Source: an uncultured Chloroflexales bacterium (GTDB taxonomy: Bacteria > Chloroflexota > Chloroflexia > Chloroflexales > Chloroflexaceae). Taken from it: a DNA stretch of 64,000 nucleotides. The DNA lies in assembly GCA_937967405.1 (NCBI GenBank), contig CALCJV010000022.1:42670-106669 (forward strand). Reading direction: 5' to 3'. The position numbers and the translations under genes are program-made. How positions within the stretch are numbered: the stretch's first letter is position 1; each line of letters opens with the position of its first letter. The notes under the pieces are model-generated. The model did no database searches. It saw only the letters and a program-made list of their open reading frames with translations, and had not been told where the DNA came from. Below are positions 40,070 through 46,754 of this stretch, one piece after another.

Positions 40070-40852
40070 TTAGGGGAGCGGCGCGGTATACTGTGGGCTA
40101 GGGATCAGGCCGAAATCGCTGAGCGGGAAATACAGCACCCACGCCTGCCCAATCACGCGATGCAGGGGCAAGGCATCCCACTCACGTGAGTCGCTGCTAT
40201 TCAAGCGATTGTCGCCCATCACAAAGATTGTATCGGGAGGTACCGTGACCGGCCCTACGCTGCATGCTGAACCGCTATTGCAAAAGGTGCTAGCTCCATG
40301 CAGGTACGGCTCATCCAGCAGCAGGTTATTCACATACACCCGCCCATCCCTGATCTCAATCGTCTCGCCGGGCAGGGCAATCACACGCTTGATGAAATCC
40401 TTCTGCACATTGAGCGGGTACTCAAACACGATAATATCGCCACGCTGGGGCATATGGAAGGGGTAAATCACACGCGGCTCAAGCTCTTGATTGCCGGGCA
40501 GTAGGCGGAGCGGCGCATTCAAATCGAAGTGAAAGTAGACAATTTTGTTGACCAGCACATATTGCCCGCTGTGCAGGGTTGGTTCCATACTGGCTCCTTC
40601 GATCTTGAAGTTCTGGACCATGCTCCGCACAATGATAAATACGAGGACAATATACATGATTGTTTCCAGCACCTCTTTGACGGCGGTGCGAACGGCATAG
40701 GGTACGGTGGGGGCCGGCGTGCTGTGCAGCATCTGAATCCATTCACTATGCGATGGCTCAGACCCGTTCGGTAGCTCAGGGGCGGTTGGCTCGGTATCGA
40801 ACGTGGGCGTTGCTGAAGGACGCAAAGGGGGGGGATTTCCTGATAGACTCAC
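40070..40852 (-). CDS. lepB: Signal peptidase I
   Basis: Membrane serine protease that cleaves signal peptides of exported proteins. I take the GTG at 40852, preceded by GGTGGAG, giving ~260 aa; the track's longer start adds an unlikely Leu-rich stretch. A ~70-residue Pro-rich cytosolic start is followed by one membrane helix (TIMYIVLVFIIVRSMV). The catalytic Ser is in IEGASMEPTLHSG and the Lys in KRVIALPGETI; MGDNRLNSSDSREW is box E. Divergent from the radical-SAM-like gene. Confidence 0.94.
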   Translation of the reverse strand: MSLSGNPPPLRPSATPTFDTEPTAPELPNGSEPSHSEWIQMLHSTPAPTVPYAVRTAVKEVLETIMYIVLVFIIVRSMVQNFKIEGASMEPTLHSGQYVLVNKIVYFHFDLNAPLRLLPGNQELEPRVIYPFHMPQRGDIIVFEYPLNVQKDFIKRVIALPGETIEIRDGRVYVNNLLLDEPYLHGASTFCNSGSACSVGPVTVPPDTIFVMGDNRLNSSDSREWDALPLHRVIGQAWVLYFPLSDFGLIPSPQYTAPLP

Positions 40853-41033
40853 AATCACTCCACCTATAGCAAGATTCGGCAAGCAGCATACACTGCGCTG
40901 CTGCACATCAATTCCAATCCAAGTAAGTAGAGAGTATGATATGATTACTAGGATGTACCATACCAAAAAGTACACTCCCTGCTATTATACTCGATAGACG
41001 CTTGAATGGCTAGACGAGGAGCCTGAGAATTCC

Positions 41034-42041
41034 ATGCACACTGCCCACTTTGTGACCCCTACTGATGATGGCCGCGTGCGCTGTGAGGCGTGTTTGTGGC
41101 GGTGCGAGCTGCATCCTGAGCAAACTGGCCGCTGTCACATGCGCGTTGCCCGGAATAATCACACGCTGGAGCTGCTCAATTATGGCTTGATTAGTGGGGC
41201 GAATGTCAGCTCAATTGAAGAGCATCGCCTGTGGCATTTCTTCCCCGATACGCTGGTGTTGGGAATCGGCAGCTGGGGCTATGCGTTCCCCGTCGATCAG
41301 GAGCGCGGCCCTTACACGACGATTCCCACTGATCCTACCAAACACCGCAGCCTGCCCGCCGAGAAAGCTGCCGCGTTTGCGCTGAAGCGGCTCTGTCGCG
41401 GCGTAGTTTGGGCTTACGGCGATCCGGCAGTCTCCGCCGAGTATACCCTCGAAATTCTGCGAGCGAGCCGCGCTGCGAGCCGCTACACGGCATTGGTAAC
41501 AACGGGCTACATGACGAGTGAAGCCTTCGAGCAGTTTGGGCCCTATTTGGATGGGATTGCGCTGGATATGCGCGGCTTCGGCGACAGTGCCTACCAACGC
41601 CTCGCCGGTGCGCCACACTGGGATGCGATCCTCGAAAGTGTCGCATGGGTCAAGCATCGCTGGCAAGTGCATATCGAAGTTACCACCCGCATGCATCACG
41701 GGGTCAATGATGATCCGCAGGAGCTACGCGCCCTGACGGCGTGGATCCGGCGGGCACTGGGGGAGCAAACCCCATGGCATATTCTGCCTGGCGATGCGGG
41801 CGTAGAGACCGCCGCTGCCGTGTTTCGCGCTCGGCGCATTGGGCTTGATGCCGGCTTGCACTATATTTACGGCATCGAGCCGGAGCAGAATACCCACTGC
41901 CCGCGCTGTGGCAATACCCTGATTGCACGCTCCAAAGGCGTATCGCGGGTGGTGGGCATCAGTGATGGGCAGTGCAATCGCTGTGGCTTTCAGCCCTACC
42001 TGCGGACCTCGATCTTCAAGCCACGCCGCCCCCAAGAGTAG
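41034..42041 (+). CDS. Radical-SAM-fold protein lacking the CxxxCxxC cluster motif
   Basis: 335 aa. Aligns along its length with the AmmeMemoRadiSam/PflA-like radical SAM enzymes. The N-terminal Cys block CEACLWRCELHPEQTGRC, then EEHRLWHFFPDTLVLGIGSWG, YGDPAVSAEYTLEILR and YLDGIALDMRGF match family blocks in order, and it ends in a CPRC...CNRC zinc ribbon. Where the family has GCNFRCxFCQNW, this protein reads GYAFPVDQERG with no cysteine. It should therefore not bind the canonical [4Fe-4S]-SAM cluster. The frame is open throughout and lengths on both sides are conserved, so this is substitution, not a frameshift. Function unknown. Confidence 0.8.
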   Translation: MHTAHFVTPTDDGRVRCEACLWRCELHPEQTGRCHMRVARNNHTLELLNYGLISGANVSSIEEHRLWHFFPDTLVLGIGSWGYAFPVDQERGPYTTIPTDPTKHRSLPAEKAAAFALKRLCRGVVWAYGDPAVSAEYTLEILRASRAASRYTALVTTGYMTSEAFEQFGPYLDGIALDMRGFGDSAYQRLAGAPHWDAILESVAWVKHRWQVHIEVTTRMHHGVNDDPQELRALTAWIRRALGEQTPWHILPGDAGVETAAAVFRARRIGLDAGLHYIYGIEPEQNTHCPRCGNTLIARSKGVSRVVGISDGQCNRCGFQPYLRTSIFKPRRPQE

Positions 42042-42296: not shown

Positions 42297-42342
42297 TTTA
42301 TTGTCTCTCAAAACATTATTACACAGGGATGAGGAACAACCT

Positions 42343-42678
42343 ATGCCACAACGACAGATTACGCTGAGTAAAGCTGAACGCCAAGAGCTGATCCGCCTCC
42401 GCGACACCGCCGATAAGCCGTATCTGCGCGAACGGGCCGCCGCGATTCTCAAAGTCGCCGATGGCACTCCGGCAGCTGTGGTGGCTCGACAGGGGCTGTT
42501 GCGGCAGCGTAAGCCGGACACGATTTACGATTGGCTAAATCGCTTTCACGCTGAGGGTATCGAGGGCTTGTGTATTCGCCCCGGACGCGGGCGTAAGCCA
42601 TCGGCAGCGACGAATGGCACGCACCCCGAAGGTGAGCCAAGCAAGCCTAAGGCACACCAAGCGACTGCCCGATCATAA
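42343..42678 (+). CDS. Solo helix-turn-helix protein (IS630-type N-terminal HTH)
   Basis: 111 aa from the ATG at 42343 (GATGAGGAAC upstream). LSKAERQELIRLRD, YLRERAAAILKVADGTPA and TIYDWLNRFHAEGIEGL match the HTH half of IS630-type transposases. The protein stops where the DDE catalytic half would begin, after RPGRGRKPS. No transposase half lies downstream; aroQ follows in the opposite direction. Either a remnant of a two-ORF insertion sequence or a domesticated DNA-binding protein; the intact promoter and leader favour expression. Confidence 0.75.
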   Translation: MPQRQITLSKAERQELIRLRDTADKPYLRERAAAILKVADGTPAAVVARQGLLRQRKPDTIYDWLNRFHAEGIEGLCIRPGRGRKPSAATNGTHPEGEPSKPKAHQATARS

Positions 42679-43296: not shown

Positions 43297-45150
43297 CTAC
43301 AGTGGGAAGAGCAACGGCAGCACCAGCACCGTCGCCACCAGAATGATGAGCTGGAGCGGCACTCCCACCCGCGCAAAGTCGGTGAAGCGGAAGCCGCCGG
43401 GGCCAGTTACCAGCACATTCACTGGCGAGCCAGTCGGGGTGGCAAAGGCGACGGAGGTGGCGACGGCGATGGTCATCAGGAAGGTTGCCGGATTCACGCC
43501 CAAGCCGACCGCCGCTTTGAATGCGACCGGAGCCATCAGGATTGTAATCGCGGTGTTGGAGGCGAATTGGCTCAGCACCACCGTTACGAGAAAGACTCCC
43601 GTCATAATCGCCGCCGGCCCATAGGGGCCAAGGTTTCGCACGATGGACTCGGAGAGGAGCTGGATCGCGCCGGTATTTTCCAGTGCAGTAGCTAGGGGGA
43701 TCATGCCCGCGATCACAAAGATGCTTTCCCAGCTCATAGCGCGGTAGGCATCCTCGATGGTGAGGCAATTGGTGAGCAGCATCGCCAGCGCACCAAACAG
43801 CACCGCCGTGACAATCGGCACAATGCCCGTAATCATCATCGCCACCATCGCCACCAAAATGGCCACCGCCGTCCAGCCTTTCCCCGTCAACTTGTCGCTG
43901 GCAACGTTGGGATCACTGAGATACGTCTTCGCAACCACTACCACGTCGCGCTGCTCGTTGCGGAGTAGCGCGACCTTTTCCCAGCTCCCTTCAGCCAACA
44001 GGGTATCGCCGAAGCGCAACGGCGTATGCACAATGTTGGGAAGCGGCTTGCCCAGCCGCAAAATACGCAGGACATTCAGCCCATAGCGTTCGCGGAAGCG
44101 GACTTGGGCAAGGCTGCGCCCAATCAAATTGGAGCGCGGGGTAAGCAGAATCTCAACCACGCCGATGTGGTCACTAATCTGTTCGAGGTCATCCTCGTGC
44201 AACGGGCGCAGCCGCAATCCCTGTTCAGCGGCCAGCTGCTCAACTGAAGCCCGTTCTCCCCACGCATATAGCACCGTATTCGCTGGGATGATCGTGTCGG
44301 GCGTAATCGGCTCGACCCGTGCGGGCCGATTGAGTTCACCGCCTTGCACCTGCATGCCCAGCACATCCACATTGTAGCGTTCGCGGATATTGGCTGAGCG
44401 CGGCGAGTGCCCACTCAGCAGCGCAGACGAACTGACATACAGCGCAAAGGCCCGATCCTGCACCGCATAGGGCTGGATCAAATCCGCAAAGCTCAGCGTC
44501 GTATCTTCCACAGGCACGACATGGGCACCCGGCGGCACGCGCTCTGGGGTAAGCCACCGCCCTACCGTGAGCATGTACCCGACGGCAATCACCCAAACAA
44601 TAATCCCCATCGGCGTAAAGGCAAAGAAGCCGAATGGCTCATAACCTTGATCGGCGAGAAAATCACTTACGACGATATTGGGCGGCGTGCCAATCAGGGT
44701 CATCATGCCCCCAATCAGTGCGCCATAGGCCAGCGGCAGCATCAGCTTGGAAGGGCTGAGGTTGGCTCCGATGGCAAGCGACACTACCACCGGCAACAAG
44801 ATCGCGGTTGCGCCGGTGGAACTCATAAATGCCGAAATCAACGTAATCACCCCCATCACCAGCAACGTCATGCGGATTTCGTCAGTTCCGGCGATCCGTC
44901 CTAGCCGCACACCCAGCGCACGCGCCACACCGGTCTGAGCGATCCCTGCCCCCACCACAAACATGCCCCCAACAATAAACACGGCCGAGTTGGACAATCC
45001 AGCAAGGGCTTCGTTGGGCGTAATCAAGTTGGTAATGAGCAGCGCAAAGACGGACAGGAACGCCACCACAGAGAGAGGCAACCGATCCCATACGAATAAG
45101 CCAACCGTGACGAGCAGGATCAGCACGGTTATCCCGATGTCAACAGTCAC
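43297..45150 (-). CDS. SLC13/DASS-type transporter with two RCK-C (TrkA-C) domains
   Basis: 617-aa inner-membrane permease. Membrane segments 1-5 (VDIGITVLILLVTVGLFVW onwards) and a second block from residue ~400 flank a cytosolic region (~200-385) with two TrkA-C-like domains (LNVLRILRLGKPLP, DTLLAEGSWEKVALL). Signature STGATAILLPVVVSLA and SNTAITILMAPVAF loops fit the divalent-anion/sulfate-citrate symporters. Its start overlaps the upstream histidine kinase stop by 4 bp, suggesting regulation of or by that kinase. The transported anion is unknown. Confidence 0.88.
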   Translation of the reverse strand: MTVDIGITVLILLVTVGLFVWDRLPLSVVAFLSVFALLITNLITPNEALAGLSNSAVFIVGGMFVVGAGIAQTGVARALGVRLGRIAGTDEIRMTLLVMGVITLISAFMSSTGATAILLPVVVSLAIGANLSPSKLMLPLAYGALIGGMMTLIGTPPNIVVSDFLADQGYEPFGFFAFTPMGIIVWVIAVGYMLTVGRWLTPERVPPGAHVVPVEDTTLSFADLIQPYAVQDRAFALYVSSSALLSGHSPRSANIRERYNVDVLGMQVQGGELNRPARVEPITPDTIIPANTVLYAWGERASVEQLAAEQGLRLRPLHEDDLEQISDHIGVVEILLTPRSNLIGRSLAQVRFRERYGLNVLRILRLGKPLPNIVHTPLRFGDTLLAEGSWEKVALLRNEQRDVVVVAKTYLSDPNVASDKLTGKGWTAVAILVAMVAMMITGIVPIVTAVLFGALAMLLTNCLTIEDAYRAMSWESIFVIAGMIPLATALENTGAIQLLSESIVRNLGPYGPAAIMTGVFLVTVVLSQFASNTAITILMAPVAFKAAVGLGVNPATFLMTIAVATSVAFATPTGSPVNVLVTGPGGFRFTDFARVGVPLQLIILVATVLVLPLLFPL

Positions 45151-46754
45151 ACCGTTTCTCCTGTAATCTGGCGCCGGGCAAGCGGCAAGGTAAAGATGAA
45201 GCGCGAGCCGCGCCCGACTTGACTTTCCACGTAGATTTTCCCGCCATGCGCTTCAATGATCGCCCGGCTGAGATACAAGCCTAGCCCTGCGCCTTGCGTT
45301 GTCCGGCGCAGACGGTTATCTATGCGGTAGAACCGCTCGAAGATGCGTTCCTGTTCCTCCGGAGGAATCCCCTCGCCCTGATCGGCAACATAGCCTAGAG
45401 CCTGATTCAGTTCGGGCAGGGGATGCCCACCAATACGGATACGCCCCCCGTGCGGGCTGTACTTGATCGCATTCGAGATCAAATTGGTGAGCACCATCCG
45501 GATACGTTCGTAATCGGCGTGGACGGGCGGCAGATCGTCCGTGAAGCGCAGTTCGAAGGTGAAGCGGTCTTGCGTTTGAGCGGCAAAGGCTTGCACCACA
45601 CTGGCGGCCAATTCGGGGAGTGACCAGTCGCTCAGTTCAAGGCGCATGCCACTCGCCTGCAAGCGCGAGACATCGAGCAAATCTTGGATTTGACGGGCCA
45701 AGCGATCCGCCTCCGCCTCAATCACACGGAAGCCTTCGCGCATGGCAGCCAAAGTCCATGCGGCATCCTCGCGTTGGAAGGTGCTGGCATAGCCTTTGAT
45801 GATACTGACGGGGGTCTTCAGTTCGTGTGAGATCACCGAGATGAAGGTATTTTGGAGTTGCTCATCGCGCTTCTGCTCGGTAATGTCGCGCACATTCGCA
45901 ATCGCCCCCAGAAATGCGCCGGTGCTACTGCGCTGAGCCGCATAGCGGCTCTGGATGTAGCGTTCGCGCCCGTCGCGGCTTGTCAGCCAGCCCTCGACAA
46001 TCGGGTTGTTCAGCGGCGGGCGGCGTTGCAACGGACAATCTACAAGGCAGATGTTGGCTCCTTGTGCATCGCGCACGCCAAGAACCTCGGCACACGGTCG
46101 CCCAATCGCTTCAGTGCGGTTCCAGCCGGTCAGTTGTTCCATCGCTTTATTGAAGGTGGTGATGCGCCAACGGGCATCAATAATCATCACCCCATCGGCA
46201 CTCTGCTCAATCATCGCATCAAGGCGTTGCTTCTCGCGCAGCACGCTCTGGTAAAGGCGCGCATTGCTCACGGCAATGGCGGCTTGGTCGGCGAAGGCTT
46301 GTAACAGGCGAGCTTCATCCACATTGAAGCTGACATTTAAGGCGGCGCGAAAGACGTAGATCGTACCGACCGGTGCAGCTGCTACAGTCAAGGGCAGGGC
46401 AATGACTTGGCGCAGGGGTAGCCCCGTCTCACCGGCAATCTCGCGCAGCACTGCGCTGGCGTTGGGCTTGCCTAACGTCTCGATGGGCAGCGCAAGCAGC
46501 CGCCGAAAGGCCGGTAGGGCAGCCGACGGAATTCCTGCCGCTGCGTAGATCTGCTGGGGCGGGGTTGGCTCCGTGCCCAGTTCATCGTCCGATAGGGCGA
46601 TCAGTCCAGCGTTGCCCGCAAGCATCTCTACGGCCACCGTGATCACCAGATCAAGCACACTCGTCAGATCGAGTTGGGCCGTGATCGCCCGGCTGATCTT
46701 AAGCAGGTATTCGCGCTGGCGTAGGCGTTGATCGGGGAGTTCCATCGCCATCAT
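45147..46754 (-). CDS. Sensor histidine kinase with GAF and PAS domains
   Basis: Cytosolic sensor, 535 aa, no membrane helix. GAF domain (~25-165, VLDLVITVAVEMLAGNAGLIAL), PAS (~185-300, IIDARWRITTFNKAMEQLTGW with a PAC strand), HisKA with the phospho-His in ISVISHELKTPVSIIKGY (~310), and HATPase with LTNLISNAIKYSPHGG, YVADQGEGIPPEEQ and TQGAGLGLYLSRAI. Start ambiguous among MMAM codons. No response regulator is adjacent, so an orphan. Coupled by overlap to the SLC13-type transporter. Confidence 0.93.
   Translation of the reverse strand: MMAMELPDQRLRQREYLLKISRAITAQLDLTSVLDLVITVAVEMLAGNAGLIALSDDELGTEPTPPQQIYAAAGIPSAALPAFRRLLALPIETLGKPNASAVLREIAGETGLPLRQVIALPLTVAAAPVGTIYVFRAALNVSFNVDEARLLQAFADQAAIAVSNARLYQSVLREKQRLDAMIEQSADGVMIIDARWRITTFNKAMEQLTGWNRTEAIGRPCAEVLGVRDAQGANICLVDCPLQRRPPLNNPIVEGWLTSRDGRERYIQSRYAAQRSSTGAFLGAIANVRDITEQKRDEQLQNTFISVISHELKTPVSIIKGYASTFQREDAAWTLAAMREGFRVIEAEADRLARQIQDLLDVSRLQASGMRLELSDWSLPELAASVVQAFAAQTQDRFTFELRFTDDLPPVHADYERIRMVLTNLISNAIKYSPHGGRIRIGGHPLPELNQALGYVADQGEGIPPEEQERIFERFYRIDNRLRRTTQGAGLGLYLSRAIIEAHGGKIYVESQVGRGSRFIFTLPLARRQITGETV

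Follow-up and report, generated by a model that had tools for sequence, protein, structure and literature searches.

The window, a stretch of 64,000 nucleotides from an uncultured Chloroflexales bacterium, carries on its forward strand a gene for a radical-SAM homologue without cluster cysteines, transcribed divergently from a type I signal peptidase gene (Table 1). Just downstream of the radical-SAM homologue, a 125-aa ORF (42301-42678, + strand) gave helix-turn-helix matches (PF13551, 36 bits) and resembles in sequence the N-terminal region of an IS630-type transposase, of which it may be a fragment. Farther along (43297-46754, - strand), a CitMHS-type transporter that includes a TrkA_C domain has a PAS/GAF histidine kinase as its neighbor, an ordinary arrangement. 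The closest family of the 335-aa protein was TIGR04337 (AmmeMemoSam_rS; 179.6 bits, E 7.6e-53). The match was near full-length (query 5-320, profile 2-328) and did not reach the curated cut-off of 220 bits; complete Cys-less orthologues scored about 112-179 bits against the same profile. The Pfam Radical_SAM profile (PF04055) was passed with 30.5 bits (cut-off 29.5) in an alignment that starts at profile position 26 and leaves the earlier profile positions unmatched in the window protein. By contrast with their cut-offs of 174 and 232 bits, the profiles for glycyl-radical enzyme activases (TIGR02494) and PFL activases (TIGR02493) gave only 37.4 and 23.3 bits. The protein has nine cysteines (17, 20, 24, 34, 121, 289, 292, 314 and 317), C121 being the sole one in residues 35-288, and no CxxxCxxC anywhere in its 335 residues.

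Table 1. Features of the Cys-less gene, its protein and its divergent neighbor, in window coordinates.
Feature	Coordinates	Strand	Basis
Type I signal peptidase (lepB, PF10502), divergent neighbor	40070..40975	-	Gene pair recurs through the order and beside L140 and L143
Cys-less (pseudo) radical-SAM protein, AmmeMemoRadiSam rSAM family	41034..42041	+	ORF, 335 aa, ATG start
N-terminal Cys quartet C17-x2-C20-x3-C24-x9-C34, putative metal (zinc) site	41082..41135	+	44/44 Cys-less, 37/37 Cys-bearing
EKKP-motif position of Cys-bearing relatives; E62-E63-H64-R65 in the window, KKP lost	41217..41228	+	Alignment
Partial TIM barrel (residues 72-282); model residues 50-280 align to PFL-activating enzyme 3c8f	41247..41879	+	Z 19.4, rmsd 2.7 over 216
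Former cluster loop, residues 79-93 (GSWGYAFPVDQERGP); C83/C87/C90 to Y/V/E; residues 86-91 predicted helix	41268..41312	+	Alignment, AlphaFold2
R105	41346..41348	+	44/44 Cys-less vs 13/37 Cys-bearing
R122	41397..41399	+	44/44 Cys-less vs 8/37 Cys-bearing
YGDP (128-131), equivalent of YNEP and PflA GGE; acid retained 44/44	41415..41426	+	PflA alignment and row counts
D178-M-R180, at the DxK position (D129/K131 in PflA); 44/44 Cys-less rows without the K	41565..41573	+	PflA alignment and row counts
C-terminal zinc-ribbon-like C289-x2-C292 ... C314-x2-C317	41898..41984	+	44/44 Cys-less
Clade-specific C-terminal tail S326-I-F328 (S/T-x-F/W)	42009..42017	+	Sequence of the Cys-less clade

Alignment with Cys-bearing relatives placed Y83, V87 and E90, within GYAFPVDQERG, in the three cluster cysteine columns at the exact spacing of CxxxCxxC. 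The GCNFHCxxCQNW of the relatives lies flush with G82-Y83-A-F-P-V87-D-Q-E90-R in the joint alignment, and the window protein is shorter by about 7-10 columns just after the loop. The sequence-only reading had described a radical-SAM homologue of the AmmeMemoRadiSam/PflA type that had exchanged its cluster loop for this peptide at conserved spacing. The profile matches and the alignment bear this out, the spacing being exact in the cysteine columns and shortened beyond them. The same reading had named a shifted register and a sequencing error as ways in which it could fail, and neither was found. A shift in register is ruled out, as the protein has no second CxxxCxxC, and a sequencing error is ruled out by a 94%-identical copy in another genome of the same genus and by every orthologue examined in the order, all of which show the same loss of cysteines. 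The dN/dS ratio was 0.03-0.12 in eight of nine Cys-less pairs (the ninth was saturated) and similar in two Cys-bearing pairs (0.08 and 0.10), some values being rough where dS exceeded 1.5. Such strong purifying selection indicates that the Cys-less gene is functional rather than the product of an error and, together with the orthologues, rules out a decaying pseudogene.

The AlphaFold2 model of the window protein (73 sequences) had a mean pLDDT of 96.4 and a pTM of 0.93. Judged from predicted secondary structure (AlphaFold2 does not model metals), the pocket has a short helix at residues 86-91, at the former cluster loop, with block pLDDT values of 95-97. The matching stretch in the model of a Cys-bearing sister has a short helix at residues 95-98 and block pLDDT values of 76-89; such lower confidence may be expected where the model omits the cluster that a loop normally holds. 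The PFL-activating enzyme was the best solved structure retrieved with the window model by Foldseek (E 4.8e-9) and also the best solved match of the sister model (Z 23.1 over 225 residues). The models support with high confidence the proposal, made from the letters of the gene, that the fold was retained, and they show it as a PflA-like barrel.

We compared the residues of 44 Cys-less and 37 Cys-bearing rows. The three cluster cysteines are present in 0, 1 and 0 of the Cys-less rows, whereas every Cys-bearing row has them all. As read from these rows, the loss is a concerted one, in which the KKP, QNW, DxK lysine and RFxP..T residues went together with the cluster cysteines. The KKP residues are found in 0, 1 and 1 of the 44 Cys-less rows (against 35, 37 and 37 of the 37 Cys-bearing ones) and the QNW residues after the loop in 3, 2 and 0 (against 37, 37 and 34). 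The DxK lysine is absent throughout the Cys-less rows and universal in the others (0/44 vs 37/37), and the RFxP..T residues follow suit: F253 (0/44 vs 34/37), P255 (4/44 vs 35/37) and T258 (0/44 vs 37/37). All eight zinc-type cysteines, on the other side of the ledger, were kept in 44/44 Cys-less rows, as anticipated for the N-terminal quartet and the C-terminal ribbon, and the two Cys4 sites that they form are, by pattern and invariance, most likely structural zinc sites. Equally invariant in the Cys-less rows are H68, H213, E215 and N225 and the acid at position 130 (E or D), which is followed by P131 in 43 rows; the GGE motif of PflA matches residues 128-130. H249 was retained in 39/44 rows, D178 in 29/44, and Asn157 occurs in 10/44. 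Several arginines are enriched, among them a newly fixed R37 (44/44 vs 25/37), R146 (40/44 vs 7/37) and R150 (38/44 vs 0/37), besides the two listed in Table 1. Within the Cys-less clade the loop has a mean top-residue frequency of 0.55 against 0.62 for the rest of the protein, whereas in the Cys-bearing group the loop value is 0.65 against 0.59.

Orthologues were drawn from 61 related genomes, named genomes, and class and phylum samples; phyla outside Chloroflexota were covered by one scan with clade-specific patterns. The Cys-less gene was present in 53 of the 61 related genomes. The Cys-less copy is the sole one in the window genome and in its congener, and 16 of the 53 also have a copy above the TIGR04337 cut-off, the aligned ones carrying the Cys motif. 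Because the two kinds coexist in these 16 genomes, they are probably not interchangeable. The 44 aligned Cys-less members belong to seven families of one class, Chloroflexia (f1-f4 within the order; f6, f8 and f9 elsewhere in the class), and named members include Chloroflexus, Oscillochloris, Chloroploca, Viridilinea, Roseiflexus and Herpetosiphon. Every row that scored >400 bits against the clade profile lacked the motif, as is partly expected of a profile built from the clade. The tree is the real test of the clade, because the profile scores derive from a profile built on the clade itself. Computed from all 81 rows with the loop columns left out and no outgroup root, it separated the 44 Cys-less rows from all the others at a single branch of support 100/99. 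Only one change of state is needed, which rules out several independent losses. The motif sits in the same column in 37/37 Cys-bearing tree rows and in each of the 40 copies added from Chloroflexota beyond the class, among which we found no Cys-less copy. The Cys-less clade that the sequence-only reading had proposed to look for across Chloroflexota is thus real and fully supported, but in this sample it spans one class, and members outside it keep the cysteines. Six more distant rows from other families of the class (L140-L143, L164 and L165; 282-321 bits against the clade profile) also lack the motif; two of their loops, NNLACRH and GGNAHSIH (one copy each), look like remnants of the cluster loop and are possible intermediates. 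The [4Fe-4S] cluster is the ancestral state of the radical-SAM superfamily, so we read the change in this tree without outgroup as loss rather than gain of the motif. On the sequence evidence, the iron-sulfur site is lost in one ancient event within the class Chloroflexia, with vertical inheritance.

The only common neighbors of the gene in Chloroflexaceae and Roseiflexus loci are the divergent signal peptidase gene and an upstream glycosyltransferase. Most Cys-bearing sister loci have the gene followed by Memo and AMMECR1, often fused. At L141 (f8), Memo comes after the Cys-less gene, and genes for a Ser/Thr kinase (PQQ-type propeller) and a PP2C phosphatase come after Memo. In Herpetosiphonaceae loci the next gene is AMMECR1, and in most of them lipoate-protein ligase, gcvT, gcvH and gcvP lie beyond it. 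Kinase (PQQ-type beta-propeller), PP2C and VWA protein genes lie downstream of the Cys-less gene, without Memo, at L140, L142, L143, L164 and L165; the VWA gene was not seen at L141, and the trio recurs in class members outside the Chloroflexales. An operon-like order of Cys-less rSAM, (AMMECR1), lipoate-protein ligase, gcvT, gcvH and gcvP was noted at L088, L091, L092, L096 and L169. AMMECR1 is missing from the last of these (f4, with lplA, gcvT, gcvH and gcvP), while gcvT and gcvP lie near the Cys-less gene at L170 (f4) and lplA at L093 (f2). Three of the order's four families show the lipoate ligase-glycine cleavage adjacency. To judge from these gene orders, the Cys-less gene early in the order probably shared an operon with AMMECR1, the lipoate ligase-glycine cleavage cluster or both, and lipoylation or one-carbon metabolism is therefore the most useful partner lead. 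It is only a lead, as adjacency alone is no demonstration of function.

Genome-wide, AMMECR1 was detected in 10 of the 61 relatives, nine of them from f3, and Memo in 9 of 61. Memo adjoins the Cys-bearing paralogue in G002, G009 and G051; in G042 and G054 the two are about 20 kb apart. Neither AMMECR1 (PF01871) nor Memo (PF01875) had a match in the window genome (G000, 88% complete) or in its congener (G001, 97% complete). The picture suggested by these gene contents is that the partner genes were lost lineage by lineage while the Cys-less protein stayed. In two Herpetosiphonaceae (L088/L176 and L090/L177), the LRGCxG motif of AMMECR1 reads LRGSVG, so that a conserved Cys of the partner is also gone in some genomes with the Cys-less rSAM gene.

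Because the cluster ligands and most of the conserved residues nearby went together, once and long ago, radical-SAM chemistry has very probably been lost in the Cys-less clade. A [4Fe-4S] cluster at the old place and the 5'-deoxyadenosyl radical would no longer be possible, and the short helix 86-91 would take over the place of the cluster loop. On balance, and with fair confidence, we favor a pseudo-radical-SAM protein whose site was lost once and which strong selection has since preserved as a barrel that works without SAM and binds metal, most likely at two structural zinc sites. It probably does a different job now from its radical-SAM relatives. The protein would work by ligand or partner binding rather than by radical chemistry, and we lean slightly towards a scaffold or regulator over a new enzyme. 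Some ligand may still bind at the top of the barrel, because the acid at position 130 is kept throughout, H249 in most rows (39/44) and D178 in many (29/44). The putative SAM-independent or regulatory role first suggested for this gene fits the concerted loss at the SAM site and the strong purifying selection elsewhere in the protein.

A less probable reading, though one of some weight, is that the barrel was rebuilt as an enzyme for a non-radical, SAM-independent reaction, with D/E130, H213, E215, R105 and R122 as the candidate site. R105, R122, H213 and E215 are invariant in the Cys-less clade, the first three more constant there than in the Cys-bearing relatives, and a new active site would explain the fixed arginines equally well; the low dN/dS and the very high model confidence through the rebuilt loop are also in line with a new enzyme. 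H213 and E215 are, however, common or universal in the Cys-bearing relatives too and may be structural. Furthermore, conservation is lower in the replacement loop than elsewhere in the protein, and no fixed catalytic set occupies the position of the old site. We consider it somewhat more doubtful that such an enzyme, with its new site at R105, R122, D/E130, H213 and E215, was also tied ancestrally, in the Chloroflexales, to lipoylation or glycine cleavage.

Adjacency to Memo in L141 and to AMMECR1 in the Herpetosiphonaceae loci examined would also suit a reduced Memo/AMMECR1 system in which the dead rSAM protein, as subunit or regulator, still binds the partners it once worked with. We regard this as improbable, because Chloroflexaceae and Roseiflexaceae, the window genome included, keep the Cys-less gene with AMMECR1 in only one of them, and because their Memo genes adjoin the Cys-bearing paralogue or lie about 20 kb from it. 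The cysteine of LRGCxG is, moreover, a serine in two Herpetosiphonaceae. The invariant quartet C17, C20, C24 and C34 could in principle bind an Fe-S cluster, so that radical-SAM chemistry would have been kept with a relocated cluster. Yet the quartet stands beside a normal cluster motif in all 37 Cys-bearing rows and so already had another role, and most of the conserved SAM-site residues were lost together with the cysteines, which makes a relocation highly unlikely. We give practically no weight to an artefact, be it a sequencing error, a wrong register or a decaying pseudogene; no point was found to support one, and the orthologues in 53/61 genomes, their single clade, the low dN/dS (0.03-0.12) and the lack of any other CxxxCxxC all argue against it.

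It is the cluster that defines a radical-SAM protein, and pipelines for annotation deduce the chemistry from the fold. The label 'radical SAM protein' in Chloroflexus, Roseiflexus and Herpetosiphon is thus likely misleading as to chemistry, as most members of one bacterial order and other families of the class keep a protein whose catalytic site has been dismantled in concert. The clade offers a single-origin case of reuse of the radical-SAM scaffold in which the fold and both Cys4 sites did not change, and the role of the conserved quartet and ribbon once the cluster is gone becomes testable in it. If the protein were a SAM-independent enzyme with a new site, it would be a clear-cut example from nature of a radical-SAM enzyme that gave up radical chemistry. 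We found no description of a Cys-less clade of the AmmeMemoRadiSam rSAM family in the literature searched. Burroughs and colleagues reportedly devoted a paper of 2019 (doi 10.1074/jbc.RA119.007595) to Memo-AMMECR1 systems. A passage in the article PMC7159879 mentions radical-SAM domains related to these systems (citing Burroughs et al., 2019).

By fold and ancestry, the window protein belongs to the radical-SAM superfamily; functionally, it lacks the three-Cys cluster motif. It shares with the TIGR04337 AmmeMemoRadiSam rSAM family near full-length homology, the N-terminal Cys quartet, the barrel and the C-terminal Cys ribbon, but is without CxxxCxxC, KKP, QNW, DxK and RFxP..T and scores below the family cut-off. 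The AmmeMemoRadiSam partner genes accompany the Cys-less gene in part, as AMMECR1 in Herpetosiphonaceae and as Memo in L141, whereas both are missing from the matches in the window genome. The likeness to PflA (3c8f, 3cb8) lies in the barrel fold (Z 19.4, rmsd 2.7 A over 216 residues, 16% identity) and in the acid at the GGE position. Unlike PflA, the window protein has no cluster cysteines, has an Arg as the equivalent of Lys131, and carries the additional N-terminal Cys quartet and C-terminal ribbon. The Cys-bearing sisters from other Chloroflexota (e.g., L135 and L137), the top-scoring Cys-bearing rows against the clade profile, have about 34-38% identity to it and the same architecture; these sisters differ in having the complete GCNFHCxxCQNW and in adjoining Memo-AMMECR1 genes, which are often fused.
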